From the IMG/VR virus record IMGVR_UViG_3300026510_000002, positions 1 to 46,842 of that record: DNA of 46,842 nucleotides; one strand, 5' to 3'. Positions 2,588 through 46,401 of the stretch are shown piece by piece. Within the stretch, counting starts at the first letter, position 1. Each line of letters opens with the position of its first letter. The translations under genes and the position numbers were made by a program. A model generated the notes under the pieces. That model did no database searches and was not told the origin of the DNA. It saw nothing but the letters and a program-made list of their open reading frames with translations. The stretch is from a virus.

Positions 2588-2664
2588 GGAAAAAGTCACA
2601 CCAAATGATGTGACTTTTATGCTTCTCTACAAACGATAAAACCAAGCCAAGAAGTGGGGCTTGA
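2588..2664 (-). ncRNA. Predicted antisense sRNA complementary to phage mRNA leaders
   Basis: This is an intergenic transcription unit on the minus strand. A TATCTTTG -7 element lies at 2670-2677 with a TTG 17 bp upstream. The transcript would start near 2664 and form a small 5' hairpin (AAGCC...GGCTT). It then runs through an open linker containing GTTTTATCGTTTGT and ends in a strong terminator hairpin (2591-2618). The linker is the exact reverse complement of the leader element in front of at least four phage genes (14 of 14), with 13-14 pairs at two more and 11 at another. Hairpin, open seed and intrinsic terminator is the classic trans-acting sRNA layout. No open frame is evident. The promoter and complementarity are seen; the regulatory role is inferred. 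Confidence 0.65.
2591..2618 (-). terminator. Intrinsic terminator of the sRNA unit
   Basis: Perfect 10-bp arms, AAAAGTCACA and TGTGACTTTT, flank an 8-nt loop. On the minus strand a run of U follows. The A-rich and T-rich arms could also stop transcripts from the other strand. Confidence 0.8.
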
Positions 2665-26785: not shown

Positions 26786-27403
26786 TTAAATTTCAGTTAA
26801 TGGGTTGAAAGTTGGTTTTAAGATTATTAAATCTTCTGACCATCCTGCTTTCATACTGAAACTCATTGTGTGTGTATCTTTAGTCGCGAAACCTTGATTA
26901 CCTCTATCTGAAATAAATGGTGATTGAATTTCAAACCCTTTGTGATTGTCTGCATCAATCTTGACAACTGCGATTTTACCACCTTGTAAGATTAAATAAA
27001 CAACCAGACCTTTTTCACACATAATCGTTTTCATTGCTTTTTCAATTTCACTTGAAAGTTCTTTGAATTCACACGAAAATGCAGATGGATTAACACCTTC
27101 AACCTCTTCAACACCGTTAAGTGTAGAGTTGTCACCACCACCGTTGGTGATTGCATCACCGGGTGCGATTGTTGGATTTGCACCAATCAATGGAGTTATC
27201 ACAATTTTTGTTGAGTCGTTTGCTGCAATTAATGCTTGCCAGTCGGCAAGTGTAAGAATACTGTTTGCATCCGGCTGTGCGCCAGTACCAAATTGACTAC
27301 CTATACGTTGAAAGGCAACCCTTTGGATTTGTTTCAAATTCACGCCACAATCTTGTGCTGGTATATCAGTCAATGCTGTTGGTGAAGGACAATTACAATC
27401 CAT
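26786..27403 (-). CDS. Structural protein, first gene of the head operon (205 aa)
   Basis: This protein starts MDCNCPSPTALTDIP. The chain is beta-rich with a motif THTMSFSMKAGWSEDLIILK near the end, reminiscent of tail-tube or decoration folds, but I cannot name a family. It is the first gene after a good promoter (27469-27497) and a terminator (27508-27537), so it is probably highly expressed. Abundant virion protein (decoration or tube) is the best guess. Confidence 0.55.
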   Translation of the reverse strand: MDCNCPSPTALTDIPAQDCGVNLKQIQRVAFQRIGSQFGTGAQPDANSILTLADWQALIAANDSTKIVITPLIGANPTIAPGDAITNGGGDNSTLNGVEEVEGVNPSAFSCEFKELSSEIEKAMKTIMCEKGLVVYLILQGGKIAVVKIDADNHKGFEIQSPFISDRGNQGFATKDTHTMSFSMKAGWSEDLIILKPTFNPLTEI

Positions 27404-27468
27404 AATGCTTGTTTTTTTTTAATTAATAAAAGTTTTTAAGAAGCATTCCCTTAGCACCTATCTGTCGA

Positions 27469-27497
27469 CAAATGTACAAATATTTTTCAAATACCAA
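27469..27497 (-). promoter_or_regulatory. Promoter of the head operon
   Basis: On the minus strand TACATTTG (27469-27476) lies 18 bp from a TTG (27495-27497). It matches the Bacteroidetes consensus and sits between a terminator and the first head gene. It lacks the leader element found at the five related promoters, so it is likely controlled differently (late class). Confidence 0.65.
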
Positions 27498-29800: not shown

Positions 29801-30007
29801 TTATACTGTAAATAATTCAGTAATATTATTGAAGTAACGATTGTCAACTGGTGCAAAAGTACCATTCTTTGACTTTCTTTGCATAGTAACATTGTTATGG
29901 TTCATAGTTCCAAACACTGCACTTTCACTGCAAATGTTTATTACTTCATTCGTTCCAGAAATATTGATTGTTCCGTAAGCAATTAATGTTGGTAATGTAG
30001 TTTTCAT
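29801..30007 (-). CDS. Hypothetical small protein, promoter-proximal (68 aa)
   Basis: It starts with ATG at 30005-30007, 7 bases after the leader element at 30015-30028 and behind promoter 30033-30061. A longer frame would begin inside the leader. The sequence is Asn/Thr-rich with NICSESAVFGTMNHNN. I recognise no domain. It heads the operon that runs to 28549, and by its leader belongs to the regulon of the predicted sRNA. Confidence 0.6.
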   Translation of the reverse strand: MKTTLPTLIAYGTINISGTNEVINICSESAVFGTMNHNNVTMQRKSKNGTFAPVDNRYFNNITELFTV

Positions 30008-30014
30008 AAGATTT

Positions 30015-30028
30015 GTTTTATCGTTTGT
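30015..30028 (-). promoter_or_regulatory. Leader element, copy 2 (sRNA target site)
   Basis: ACAAACGATAAAAC on the minus strand, 14 of 14 complementary to the sRNA linker, 7 bases before the start codon at 30007. Confidence 0.75.
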
Positions 30029-36604: not shown

Positions 36605-37123
36605 TTATAAAAGTTCAAATTCTTGAATACACGAACTTCCAATTGTGAATTCTTTACCATCCAAAAATTCTGGGTCCGATAAGTTGAAACAAGGCTTCCA
36701 TTTGTCGTGTATTTTCTTGATGACTCTAATGTGTGACCGTAAAATATCACCACCATTTGGACCCACCTGAACAACCACACGAACCATACCTTCATCCATA
36801 GCATTTGAATACAATTCACGTATTGCTTGCCAAAGTGTCCAGTGGTGGCCAATTTCAGATGTAATTGATGTTTCTTTGTCATTGATGCAAATGACATTAA
36901 ATGTTTCTTCGCCAAGTTTGCGTTGAACTGTTGTAAATACAATTTCCTTTTTTCCAGTGAAAATTCTAAAATCATACTGTTTTCTTGTTAAGTAAGAAAT
37001 TGAATACTTGTTTCCAGAACCGAACATTCCGATTTTAGAATTATTACCTCTTTTCGTTGATGCTCCAACTAAACTGAATGCTTCTGGTACAACGTTACCT
37101 TTGTTTGTGATTTTTAAATACAT
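36605..37123 (-). CDS. GHKL-type ATP-binding-like protein, possibly truncated (172 aa)
   Basis: It starts MYLKITNKGNVVPEAFSLVG, with IGMFGSGNKYSISYL and a later WQAIRELYSNAMDEG. These resemble the N-box (E-x-x-x-N-A-x-D) and glycine motifs of GHKL ATPases. Proteins with this start seem to be longer in related phages, so this may lack its C-terminal half (inference). It is first behind a leader-type promoter (37133-37180). Confidence 0.6.
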   Translation of the reverse strand: MYLKITNKGNVVPEAFSLVGASTKRGNNSKIGMFGSGNKYSISYLTRKQYDFRIFTGKKEIVFTTVQRKLGEETFNVICINDKETSITSEIGHHWTLWQAIRELYSNAMDEGMVRVVVQVGPNGGDILRSHIRVIKKIHDKWKPCFNLSDPEFLDGKEFTIGSSCIQEFELL

Positions 37124-37132
37124 TTTAAATTT

Positions 37133-37146
37133 GTTTTATCGTTTGT
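37133..37146 (-). promoter_or_regulatory. Leader element, copy 3 (sRNA target site)
   Basis: ACAAACGATAAAAC on the minus strand, 14 of 14 complementary to the sRNA linker and 9 bases before the start codon at 37123. Confidence 0.75.
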
Positions 37147-37281: not shown

Positions 37282-37644
37282 TCAAGCAGATGCAGATGAT
37301 GAATTTGCATCAGTTGGTTTTGCATCCAAAAATTCAAATTCGTTCACGTGAATTTCAGTACCGTACATTTTCACACCATCTTTTTCCCAACTGGTGTACT
37401 TCAAACGTCCTTCAACATAAAGTTTTGAACCTTTTTTTGTGTACTTTTCAATCACCTCAGCACCTTTGTTTCTAAAAACGAGGTTATGCCATTCAGTGTT
37501 TGAAACGACTTCACCAGCCTTGTTTTTGTACTTTTCAGTTGTGGCCATAGATACACGACCAAGACAACCACCGCCGTCAAAATGGTGCATTTGTATTGCA
37601 TCACCGAAATTTCCAATTAAAATCACTTTGTTTGTTTTTCCCAT
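37282..37644 (-). CDS. ssb: Single-stranded DNA-binding protein, ends at TGA before its acidic tail
   Basis: This OB-fold SSB of 120 residues starts MGKTNKVILIGNFGDAIQ with core motifs TEWHNLVF and LYVEGRLKYTSWEKDGVK. Translation would stop at TGA (37279-37281) after NSSSASA. The next 19 codons in the same frame read PTAPDGKTEPESGNDDLPF and then TAA (37222-37224). DDLPF is the signature SSB tip that recruits partner proteins, so the natural gene should extend to 37222. Either readthrough, mutation or a sequence error is involved. The SSB call is firm. Confidence 0.85.
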   Translation of the reverse strand: MGKTNKVILIGNFGDAIQMHHFDGGGCLGRVSMATTEKYKNKAGEVVSNTEWHNLVFRNKGAEVIEKYTKKGSKLYVEGRLKYTSWEKDGVKMYGTEIHVNEFEFLDAKPTDANSSSASA

Positions 37645-38944: not shown

Positions 38945-40027
38945 TTATTTAAGCTTTGACAACCATTGGTTGTAAATTCGTGTTGCTATCTGGGCCACCA
39001 TTACTGGTGGTACCGACATACCAATTATGTATGTTGGTAAATTCTTGCCAAAATCATAATCACTTGGCCACGTTCCAGCCCTGAACAATTCATTCAAAGA
39101 CAATCCACGTTTTTCATCAAAGAGTATGTTTTTTTCTGCACCAGTAATGGTGTTGACCACTTTATGCTTGTAAATGTAGTTTACACTAAAAAAGGAATTT
39201 GGACGGTTAAAAACACGCCCCATTGTGCAACTTAAATCATTGTCACCGGCTTTTCTGTGTTCCCAAGCTTTTCCGTATGCTGGTGGTATTTTATAGACAC
39301 CAGTTTTTTGATTTGGTTCGTAAATTTCACCAAATGGTATTTCTTTCTGGTTGAAGTTCATACCAAGTTTCGGCATTGGATTGAACATATCAGTAAAATC
39401 ATCAAACTGACCAGCAAAATCCTTTCGTATTGCAACAAAAAAGACACGTTCACGTTTCTGTGGCACACCCATATCTTTTGCATTTAAAAGCCACTTTTCA
39501 ACATAATAACCAGCATCATCAAACGCCTTGCCAATTGCACCAACATATTTCTTTGCTGAGCCCATCAATAAACCTTTTACATTTTCTGCAACAACAACTT
39601 TTGGTTGTAATTCCTTTGCTAAATCAATGAAGTTAAAAAATAGTGTGTCCAGAACTTGTTTGGCTTGACCCTCTTTAAACACCTTTTCTTTGCCCCAATC
39701 ATCTTCACGATTGCCACACATAGAAAAAGAACTGCAAGGTGGTGAACCGTCAAGTATATCCAAATCATACAACTCTTCTGGTAAATCTTTTCGGTCCTTG
39801 AATGTTTCAATACTTTCAAGAAATGAATATTTTGGTTTGTGATTTGTCAAGTATGCAGACATCATTCGTTTGTCAATCTCGTTGCATCCAATTACATCAC
39901 CACCAGCCAGTTTATAACCAAATGATGAACCACCACCACAAGCAAAACACGTGAATACTTTGAATTTGTCTTTTGTGAATTCTGTATTGGCCATTGACCA
40001 AGTGTAAGGAAATTTATTTTCAATCAT
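38945..40027 (-). CDS. DNA (cytosine-5) methyltransferase
   Basis: This 360-residue C5-methyltransferase transfers a methyl group to cytosine, probably to protect phage DNA from host restriction. Motifs are in order: FTCFACGGGSSFG (I, residues 24-36), GSPPCSSFS with catalytic Cys 98 (IV), AENVKGLL (VI, about 147-154), QKRERVFFVAIRK (VIII) and IIGMSVPPVMV near the end (X). No restriction partner is nearby. The gene is first behind a leader-type promoter, with ATG one base from the leader element. Confidence 0.93.
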   Translation of the reverse strand: MIENKFPYTWSMANTEFTKDKFKVFTCFACGGGSSFGYKLAGGDVIGCNEIDKRMMSAYLTNHKPKYSFLESIETFKDRKDLPEELYDLDILDGSPPCSSFSMCGNREDDWGKEKVFKEGQAKQVLDTLFFNFIDLAKELQPKVVVAENVKGLLMGSAKKYVGAIGKAFDDAGYYVEKWLLNAKDMGVPQKRERVFFVAIRKDFAGQFDDFTDMFNPMPKLGMNFNQKEIPFGEIYEPNQKTGVYKIPPAYGKAWEHRKAGDNDLSCTMGRVFNRPNSFFSVNYIYKHKVVNTITGAEKNILFDEKRGLSLNELFRAGTWPSDYDFGKNLPTYIIGMSVPPVMVAQIATRIYNQWLSKLK

Positions 40028-40028
40028 A

Positions 40029-40041
40029 TTTTATCGTTTGT
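40029..40041 (-). promoter_or_regulatory. Leader element, copy 4 (sRNA target site)
   Basis: ACAAACGATAAAA on the minus strand, 13 of 13 complementary to the sRNA linker and separated from the ATG at 40025-40027 by a single T. Confidence 0.72.
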
Positions 40042-41777: not shown

Positions 41778-42206
41778 TTATCTGTCAAGTGCAATATCAC
41801 GTTTCAAATCCCAATCTGGTTCACCACTTTCAGACCAATCACAATTTGAATTTAAACACTTTTTTTCTTCCCATTCTTGACCCCAACAACCATCAGTTTC
41901 AGTTTCAGTTTCGCATCCACATTGCGGACAATCTTCACTTGTGTTTTTGTAAAATAAGTTTCCGAAAAGTTCATTAATCTGAACTTCTGAACGTCCAATG
42001 ACCATCAATGTAACTGCAAACATTTCAAATCCGTAATCACTTACAATTTGACTAAATAATACACCAGCATCATCAGTTTCTTCAAGTTCAATATTTAATT
42101 TTTTAAAACCTTTTGAAATTCTTTCTTTCACTTCATCTTGTGAAATGTTAAGTATGTTAGAAATTTGAGTTAATTCGACTGAATTTGGTAAAAATAGATT
42201 GTTCAT
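41778..42206 (-). CDS. Zinc-ribbon protein (142 aa), promoter-proximal
   Basis: I start at ATG 42204-42206 (MNNLFLPNSVELTQIS) because the longer frame runs through the leader and promoter. The N-terminal two thirds are helical; the end contains CPQCGCETETETDGCWG and KKCLNSNCDWSESGEP, a four-Cys zinc ribbon. It is first behind promoter 42235-42263 with the leader element 8 bases before ATG, so it is probably a target of the predicted sRNA. Function unknown. Confidence 0.65.
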   Translation of the reverse strand: MNNLFLPNSVELTQISNILNISQDEVKERISKGFKKLNIELEETDDAGVLFSQIVSDYGFEMFAVTLMVIGRSEVQINELFGNLFYKNTSEDCPQCGCETETETDGCWGQEWEEKKCLNSNCDWSESGEPDWDLKRDIALDR

Positions 42207-42214
42207 TTGTAATT

Positions 42215-42228
42215 GTTTTATCGTTTGT
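42215..42228 (-). promoter_or_regulatory. Leader element, copy 5 (sRNA target site)
   Basis: ACAAACGATAAAAC on the minus strand, 14 of 14 complementary to the sRNA linker and 8 bases before the ATG at 42204-42206. Confidence 0.75.
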
Positions 42229-42282: not shown

Positions 42283-42789
42283 TTAAAATAAAGTCAATTC
42301 ATCTTTCTTTAATACACCATAAATATTGATGACCATACGGTGTGGGCCACGTTCATACGACATACGAATATCATCAATATAACGTACTGTATCGTCTTTT
42401 AAAACATTCAAGGTCTTAATCTCTTTACCTTTAAAATTGGCGTTCTTAATTTGTCGATTTGATGGTGTCTTGAACAAATCCAATATCATCTTTATCCAGA
42501 AATAACCTTTGTTGTCCAAATCAAATGTGTCTTGTGGTTTATAATAAATCAAGTGTATGCGCATTTTTTCAAGTTTTGGAACGCCAACCAGTTTAGGCAT
42601 CAAGTATGCTTTAATTTCATTCACAATCTTGTAACGCATAAAATATGACAAAACACTGTAAAATAAATTTGCAGTCAAGTAATAAACATCTTCTTTAAGT
42701 TTCCCGGTCTTTGGGTCAATCTTGGTTTTTTTTCTGTCGATGTACTTTGTCGGTGGGTCCAGTATAATTATTTCTTTGATTAAATCCAT
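42283..42789 (-). CDS. RusA-like Holliday junction resolvase (168 aa)
   Basis: It starts MDLIKEIIILDPPTKYIDRK. Conserved acidic residues of RusA are present in QDTFDLDNKGYFWIKMILD and further in DDTVRYIDDIRMSYE. The latter corresponds to the DxDN and DD motifs that bind metal. Phages use such nucleases to resolve recombination or packaging branches. It overlaps its upstream neighbour by one base. Confidence 0.85.
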   Translation of the reverse strand: MDLIKEIIILDPPTKYIDRKKTKIDPKTGKLKEDVYYLTANLFYSVLSYFMRYKIVNEIKAYLMPKLVGVPKLEKMRIHLIYYKPQDTFDLDNKGYFWIKMILDLFKTPSNRQIKNANFKGKEIKTLNVLKDDTVRYIDDIRMSYERGPHRMVINIYGVLKKDELTLF

Positions 42790-43082
42790 TATTTTGTTTT
42801 GTTTATTAATTCATTCCAGTGGTCATAAATTTTGTCAATTATTCCACCCCATTCATTGACTTTTCCACCACTACTTTTTGTTCTTTTTGTGTGACTTCTT
42901 AAAATATTACCAACACCAATTGAATTGCTGTATGTTTTTAGTTTTCCATTGTTACTGACTTGAATGTACCAGTTGTTTTTTTTATAGGTTGTTTTTTCAA
43001 TTTTTTCATCTTTAAGAAAATGAACTGGATATATTTTTATTCCAACTTTTAAACAATTCGACATTGCACTATTCTTGGCCAT
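42789..43082 (-). CDS. Hypothetical protein (97 aa)
   Basis: I start at ATG 43080-43082 (MAKNSAMSNCLKVGIKIY). The central part (NNWYIQVSNNGKLKTYSNS) is beta-rich and the end is basic. No family recognised. It overlaps the upstream coiled-coil gene by 14 bases and ends one base into the resolvase start. Confidence 0.55.
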   Translation of the reverse strand: MAKNSAMSNCLKVGIKIYPVHFLKDEKIEKTTYKKNNWYIQVSNNGKLKTYSNSIGVGNILRSHTKRTKSSGGKVNEWGGIIDKIYDHWNELINKTK

Positions 43083-43479
43083 AATATTCAATTTCTTTTT
43101 TTAGTGTTTCAATCTGCTTTTTCAAATCTGCTGCATCGTGGGCCATTCGTGTTGTCATTCGTCTTTCATCATTCAAATCTAACATTGTACGTTTTGATAT
43201 TGTTTGCAATGTGTCACAATAAGACTGCATTCGCATAAGTGCTTGAATTGATGTATTGATTGTCTTTTTTTGGTCATCGTTTTTCGCACCTTTCAACCAC
43301 TTCAAAAACAATTCAAAAAGCATTGTATAATCAGTTTGATATTGAAAATCAAGCAATCGTTCAGTTGCTTGCATTCTGTCAAACTGAATGCTTTTTTCTT
43401 TTTGGTGTCGAATGAAAAAACCCATTTGAGCACGTTCCATAAGTCCGTGTTCTTTTCGTTGTTCATTCAAATCTTTCAT
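43069..43479 (-). CDS. Coiled-coil protein (136 aa)
   Basis: I start at ATG 43477-43479 (MKDLNEQRKEHGLMERAQM), directly preceded by the 13-nt leader element. A start seven codons upstream would encode that element. The chain is helical, with a coiled coil in the last 40 residues (DAADLKKQIETLKKEIEYY). No family recognised. It follows the DnaB-like helicase and may assist replication. Confidence 0.6.
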   Translation of the reverse strand: MKDLNEQRKEHGLMERAQMGFFIRHQKEKSIQFDRMQATERLLDFQYQTDYTMLFELFLKWLKGAKNDDQKKTINTSIQALMRMQSYCDTLQTISKRTMLDLNDERRMTTRMAHDAADLKKQIETLKKEIEYYGQE

Positions 43480-43492
43480 TTTATCGTTTGTA
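43479..43492 (-). promoter_or_regulatory. Leader element, copy 6 (no promoter nearby)
   Basis: The sequence TACAAACGATAAAA on the minus strand pairs with 14 bases of the sRNA linker and runs directly into the ATG at 43479. I see no TAnnTTTG promoter upstream, so this copy acts in an operon transcript if it is functional. Confidence 0.6.
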
Positions 43493-43510
43493 TCGCTCAT
43501 TGATTAGATT

Positions 43511-45203: not shown

Positions 45204-46385
45204 TTATTTTATTTTAATTTTTAAACCTTTTGGAGTTTTTACACGTGAAAGTGCAGTGTATAATTGACCTTTTGCAAAACACTTTCTGGACAAATCAACT
45301 GTAATTTCATCAAACGTCAAACCCTGGAACTTGTGAATTGTTAGTGCATAAGCCAACTTAACTGGCAATTGTGTCATACTTCCAATTTCTTGCATTTCAA
45401 TTTCTTTGGTGAAATCGTTATACACGTATGCTTTTTTATCCATTATAGAGTGCTCAATAAGCCATTGTGTTTTTTCAATCTCAATGTATGGCAAACCTTT
45501 TTTCATTCTAAATACACCAAGTGAACCATTGTACAATGGATTTTCTTTTGAGTTCACCAGATACATTATTTTACAACCATCTTTTAAATTCAAATTTTCT
45601 TCAAGTGTGAAGTCATAAGCCTTTGCGTTACCAGTCAATTTTGCTTTGAAGTTGTAATTCTTTGACTTAATTGCTGCAAGACCTTCAATGTTGTATTTTG
45701 CAACTGTGGCGTTGTGTGGTGCCAAGACAATACCACTTGCATCTTCTGAAACGAATTGTTTGAAATAATCACTTTTACCACCATCACGTACAACATTCAA
45801 TGCTTCAATAAAATCTGGGTCCGATTGTCTATGAATAAAATCCAATTCAATCTTTTCAACTTGCAAATCATTATACATTTGACAATCGTGAAATTTGAAA
45901 CCATCGTATTTGGTAAGCAAAACACTCATTGTATTGTCATCAATTGGTGCTGGTAATTGTTTAAGGTCACCAACAAAAATCAATTGTTTATTAGTTAGTT
46001 TTCCAAGTCCATTTTTGACCAAAGTCCAGTGAAGTGCGTCCAACATATCTGGTCGCAACATTGAAACTTCATCAATAAAAATCACGTCCACTTTTTTCAA
46101 AATCTTTCTTTTAGCAGATTTTAGAAATGAACATTCTTTGTATTCCATCACACCATTTATTGGCAAACCGAACATTGAATGAAGTGTTTGACCACCTATG
46201 TTGTAGGATGCAATACCAGTTGGTGCAAGTGCAATAATTCTTTGACCTTGTTTTTTAAGTATTTTAATTGCTTCTTTCACGATAAACGACTTACCAGTAC
46301 CAGCCTTTCCAGTTAAGAAAATGTTACGTCCTTTCATCAATTCATCAAGAAAAAAACTTTGTTTTTCTGAATGTGTTATTTTCAT
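45204..46385 (-). CDS. Pif1/Dda-like superfamily 1 helicase
   Basis: I start at ATG 46383-46385 (MKITHSEKQSFFLDELMKG), preceded by a variant leader element. Motifs in order: LTGKAGTGKSFIVKEA (I), LAPTGIASYNIGGQTLHSM (Ia), VIFIDEVSMLRPDML (II), QLIFVGDLKQLPAP (III), YALTIHKFQGLTFDEI (V) and LYTALSRVKTPKGL (VI). Such helicases assist phage replication or recombination. A structured intergenic region separates it from the exonuclease. An upstream in-frame start at 46463 would lie in that region and is less likely. Confidence 0.9.
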   Translation of the reverse strand: MKITHSEKQSFFLDELMKGRNIFLTGKAGTGKSFIVKEAIKILKKQGQRIIALAPTGIASYNIGGQTLHSMFGLPINGVMEYKECSFLKSAKRKILKKVDVIFIDEVSMLRPDMLDALHWTLVKNGLGKLTNKQLIFVGDLKQLPAPIDDNTMSVLLTKYDGFKFHDCQMYNDLQVEKIELDFIHRQSDPDFIEALNVVRDGGKSDYFKQFVSEDASGIVLAPHNATVAKYNIEGLAAIKSKNYNFKAKLTGNAKAYDFTLEENLNLKDGCKIMYLVNSKENPLYNGSLGVFRMKKGLPYIEIEKTQWLIEHSIMDKKAYVYNDFTKEIEMQEIGSMTQLPVKLAYALTIHKFQGLTFDEITVDLSRKCFAKGQLYTALSRVKTPKGLKIKIK

Positions 46386-46390
46386 TTTTT

Positions 46391-46401
46391 TCGTTTGTAG
46401 A
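46391..46401 (-). promoter_or_regulatory. Variant leader element before the helicase
   Basis: TCTACAAACGA on the minus strand matches the complement of the sRNA linker and following bases over 11 positions, immediately before the A run and ATG at 46383-46385. It lacks the T of the standard element. Confidence 0.5.

Follow-up and report, generated by a model that had tools for sequence, protein, structure and literature searches.

A putative phage-encoded small RNA that may act on the early genes of a virus of Bacteroidota bacteria

The window analysed here, a stretch of 46,842 nucleotides that makes up the whole of IMG/VR virus record IMGVR_UViG_3300026510_000002, contains a short intergenic segment on the minus strand, at 2588-2677, that has the layout of a small RNA gene and includes the exact reverse complement of a sequence repeated just ahead of several of the virus's own genes. 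This raises the question of whether the segment encodes a trans-acting RNA directed at those messages, as proposed in a sequence-only reading, or whether the repeated motif is simply a DNA operator.

From 2677 to 2588 the minus strand reads TATCTTTG-CATC-ATCAAGCCCCACTTCTTGGCTTG-GTTTTATCGTTTGT-AGAGAAGCATAAA-AGTCACATCATTTGGTGTGACT-TTTTTCC, where the dashes mark the parts and one linker-flank base is shared with the hairpin foot. The -7 element TATCTTTG, of the Bacteroidota TAnnTTTG type, lies at 2677-2670. The inferred sRNA of about 75-78 nt (2588-2665, predicted minimum free energy -24.9 kcal/mol) consists of a 5' hairpin at 2641-2665 with core CAAGCC/GGCTTG and loop CCACTTCTT, the antisense linker or seed GTTTTATCGTTTGT at 2629-2642, and an intrinsic terminator with its stem-loop at 2594-2615 and its T-tract running to about 2588. 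The unit contains no ORF. The linker had been described in the sequence-only reading as open, but in the predicted fold its first two or three bases belong to the foot of the 5' hairpin, and the mean unpaired probability of its 14 bases is 0.53, so that it is only partly open.

The complementary 14-mer, ACAAACGATAAAAC, is present exactly on the minus strand at 2497-2510, 30015-30028, 37133-37146 and 42215-42228 and, antisense, in the linker; a first-order Markov model of the window predicts 0.0026 exact copies of the 14-mer, where 5 are seen, and 0.014 of the 13-mer, where 7 are seen. The first four lie in the leaders of a 74 aa protein of unknown function (gene 2265-2489, the first gene downstream of the sRNA), a 68 aa protein of unknown function (29801-30007), a phrog_8203 protein, also of unknown function (36605-37123), and a protein with a weak, sub-threshold Sigma70_r4 match (41778-42206). 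Two further minus-strand copies, ACAAACGATAAAAT at 40028-40041 and 43478-43491, differ only in the last base, C to T, which still pairs with the same G of the linker as G-U. The former ends at the base before the start codon of a C5 cytosine DNA methyltransferase (38945-40027). The latter, which has no promoter, had been placed at the start codon at 43479; it overlaps that ATG, but may instead lie in codons 4-8 of the longer ORF 43069-43500 (phrog_6235). Every copy of the 13-mer is in a translation initiation region or in the sRNA unit. The additional site proposed before the Dda/PIF1-like helicase gene (45204-46385), at 46385-46398 on the minus strand, has two mismatches and is not convincing alone, since about 19 sites with up to three mismatches are expected by chance; it has not been counted as an independent target.

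With the genes running leftward, the unit lies after the tail and late genes and before the first gene of the replication region, which includes RecT (1052-1858) and an exonuclease subunit (505-1074) and would wrap, if the genome is circular or permuted, to the helicase, RusA (42283-42789) and SSB (37282-37644). The targets include the methyltransferase and unknown genes that start transcription units with good promoters. The target promoters, with -7 elements at 2524, 30040, 37158, 40053 and 42242 on the minus strand, share an upstream AT-rich near-palindrome of the AATAAAATATTTTATT type, and four of the five also have TTAGCA closer to the -7 element. The AATAAAATATTTTATT box, a candidate activator or operator site, is absent upstream of the sRNA promoter.

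A megablast of the first 24 kb of the window against phage records gave no match, and a tail-protein scan of viral contigs gave nothing. Portal and terminase searches, however, identified relatives in IMG/VR, among cultured phages (Fpv5-11 of F. psychrophilum, tant8-1, phage 1/32, Croceibacter phages P2559S and P2559Y, and Bacteroides and Parabacteroides phages) and in Bacteroidota genomes; some are designated here by G, L or F numbers. The exact motif of the window phage is missing from them, with only two single-mismatch copies found, but many repeat a leader sequence of their own at several promoters. A search for intergenic units with TAnnTTTG plus a terminator then detected sRNA-like units whose linkers are antisense to those leaders. 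Against GTTTTATCGTTTGT/ACAAACGATAAAAC in the window phage (six leaders, including the two with G-U), the linker/leader pairs are GTTTTGTGATA/TATCACAAAAC in G007 (4 leaders), TTTAATTGGTT/AACCAATTAAA in G005 (4), TTGTTTGTTC/GAACAAACAA in G023 (3), GCTCTCGGT/ACCGAGAGC in Croceibacter phage P2559S (6), and TTTGAAGTTC/GAACTTTAAA, with one G-U, in G015 (8). In Bacteroides phage BF486P1 the pair is GTTACTACT/AGTAGTAAC, also given as TTGTTACTACT/AGTAGTAACA (4-6), with the same core in B40-8 and B124-14; tant8-1 and G027 have AAATGTTTGTTT/AAACAAACATTT, and L269 has AAAAATGTTTGT/ACAAACATTTTT, ending at the start codon. Thus the opposite was found of what the sequence-only reading had named as evidence against itself, a leader that changes in related phages while the linker does not: in several related phages both have changed and still match.

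In most of the portal-identified relatives checked, the unit lies just upstream of the first early gene. A unit lies directly upstream of a gene with the target leader in the window phage, G002, G003, G007, G023, G024, G026, G027 and L269, while in tant8-1 it lies at the record end, before gene 1. Most share the hairpin-linker-terminator anatomy, and several share a TTTTCCAC hairpin loop, though the hairpin arm lengths differ. Not all relatives gave so clear a picture. In G002, G003, G024, G026, tant8-1 and Fpv5 the seed is of low complexity (GTTTG or A/T runs) and weak alone. The partial contigs G013 (L021), G018 (L028) and G014 (L022) have repeated early leaders (of the TAATCTGCGTTTAACA, TGTATAAGAAATAACAAA and ACATCGAACTTTAAAA types), but no antisense unit was detected in them. 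Elizabethkingia phage TCUEAP2 (L261) has a promoter-terminator unit at 24894-24800, minus strand, with GCTCTCGGTTA, the same core as the P2559S sRNA, but with only one weak leader match in its own genome, so it cannot be taken as proven. No convincing antisense units were seen in wider terminase relatives or in Bacteroidota prophages within 10 kb of the terminase, where the early regions were mostly not covered.

Covariation was tested across 18 phages without choosing units or leaders by complementarity. Every promoter-plus-terminator unit and every intergenic start region, found with simple purpose-written scanners, was used; duplex energies (best unit, mean of the best four leaders) were scored within and between genomes, and the own-genome total was compared with permuted matching. 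The summed own-genome score is 289, against 244 +- 7.5 when units and leaders are matched at random, and was reached in 0 of 200,000 permutations; an earlier version with hand-chosen units gave 0 of 100,000. The signal is carried by the window phage, G023, P2559S, G026, G028, BF486P1 and G007, while Fpv5, F132 and G003 contribute nothing. Only two very close pairs of phages were dereplicated, and remaining relatedness is not modelled beyond that. It should also be noted that unconstrained duplex energies over the whole sRNA body do not rank the motif targets on top in the window phage; long non-specific pairings score as well, and a reversed-sRNA control gives similar best energies. The signal lies in the uninterrupted matches and in the cross-phage comparison.

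These comparisons also bear on the alternatives. That the leaders were shared through duplication of promoter-leader cassettes, leaving the antisense unit as an inverted relic without function, has some support in that the target promoters in each phage share sequence beyond the leader motif. It is very unlikely, however, as it would need the repeated, independent creation of the relic inside a promoter-hairpin-terminator unit in each phage lineage, always with the new leader sequence. The possibility of a DNA operator for a phage transcription factor next to early promoters, with the copy at 2629-2642 as one more operator in the other orientation, draws on the observation that five of the six leader copies lie directly downstream of TAnnTTTG promoters that share further upstream sequence. 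But the motif is not palindromic and always has the sense orientation in leaders, the two variant copies keep RNA pairing through G-U, and in the sRNA unit it has the opposite orientation and lies about 35 nt inside an inferred terminated transcript. In P2559S it is 1-4 nt before the start codon in all six genes, and in G005 three of four copies have no promoter upstream but sit 10-11 nt from the ATG; promoterless copies at the usual distance also exist in the window phage, G015, G023 and BF486P1. In the window phage, G007, G023 and P2559S every copy of the core motif is in a start region except the single antisense copy, which lies in the sRNA unit. This pattern fits an mRNA element read by an antisense RNA and argues against an operator, which is considered unlikely; the AATAAAATATTTTATT palindrome is a better operator candidate.

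The reading preferred here, with reasonable though not full confidence in the absence of transcript data, is that the unit is the gene of a phage-encoded, terminator-ended sRNA whose linker base-pairs with a shared 12-14 nt element in the short 5' leaders, of about 20-30 nt, of at least five, probably six, mRNAs of its own phage. The element overlaps the ribosome landing site. In Flavobacterium johnsoniae, initiation lacks Shine-Dalgarno sequences and is tuned by bases just upstream of the start and by mRNA structure (PMC6847099), so a duplex there should block 30S binding, and coordinated repression of translation of the replication and takeover genes is the most likely effect, possibly as negative feedback or as an early-to-late shut-off. 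The sRNA might instead activate or stabilise the early mRNAs, for example by shielding their 5' ends or preventing inhibitory leader structure, since the pairing begins within a few bases of the inferred 5' ends and end-protecting sRNAs are known in general. This appears improbable, as in several targets the site abuts or overlaps the start codon (the copies ending at 40041 and 43491 in the window phage; +1 to +4 in P2559S), which would hinder initiation, and the A-rich leaders show no obvious inhibitory structure. A more speculative possibility, rather unlikely on present evidence, is that sRNA and leaders form an RNA-based immunity system, with seed and leader defining a specificity group much as repressor and operator do in lambdoid phages, so that a cell already carrying the phage would silence the early genes of an incoming phage with the same leader, and the seed would diversify between phages by selection to escape. 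No tyrosine integrase (PF00589) or HTH_3 (PF01381) match was detected in the record, so there is no sign of a classical lysogeny module, and RNA may stand in for a protein repressor.

Small phage RNAs that act on phage messages are already known, but no Rfam 15 family reached its gathering cut-off here. P22 sar and P1/P7 c4 RNAs also pair with phage mRNA and block expression (PMC12197685), but control one target each (ant), while here one RNA matches several (three to eight) separate leaders, and seed and leaders change together between phages. The lambda OOP RNA is likewise short and terminator-ended, but is cis-encoded with long, full complementarity to cII; the present unit is trans-encoded, with a 9-14 nt seed, lying upstream of and on the same strand as the target gene at 2489, with its other targets kilobases away. 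VpdS of phage VP882 and PreS of lambda are trans-acting phage-encoded sRNAs (PMC12197685), but are Hfq-dependent and described mainly through host targets, with no shared-leader regulon. GibS and FopS of Bacteroides are trans-acting sRNAs from the same bacterial phylum (PMC11697453) but are host-encoded, and gave no match in the Rfam scan. A 2025 review of phage-derived sRNAs (PMC12197685) lists sar, c4, OOP, aQ, sas, VpdS, PreS, 24B_1 and others, none of which is described there as pairing with a shared leader of many phage mRNAs, and no description of this design was found in the literature searched, which did not extend to subscription journals or preprints. Phage gene timing is usually explained by proteins -- repressors, sigma factors, antiterminators -- while here one small RNA seems to address a whole set of early genes through a shared leader in phages of Flavobacterium-type, Croceibacter and Bacteroides hosts. 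This reading also explains why such phages repeat one leader before many early genes.

Other possible RNA elements were noticed in the window. The leader of the major head protein gene (26786-27403), at 27404-27476 on the minus strand, has a conserved GGGA (mostly AAGGGA) flanked by short inverted arms, for example GC-TAAGGGAAT-GC, and recurs before the same gene (start ATGGATTGTAAT) in ten relatives. Consensus folding of the alignment gave no pairs, because the stems shift in the alignment, but the arms, while different, seem by eye to stay complementary. From 28544 to about 28490, on the minus strand, lies a second promoter (TATATTTG) plus terminator-like unit with no ORF, a possible further small RNA; extra units of this kind are also found in other relatives (G023, G024 and G005).
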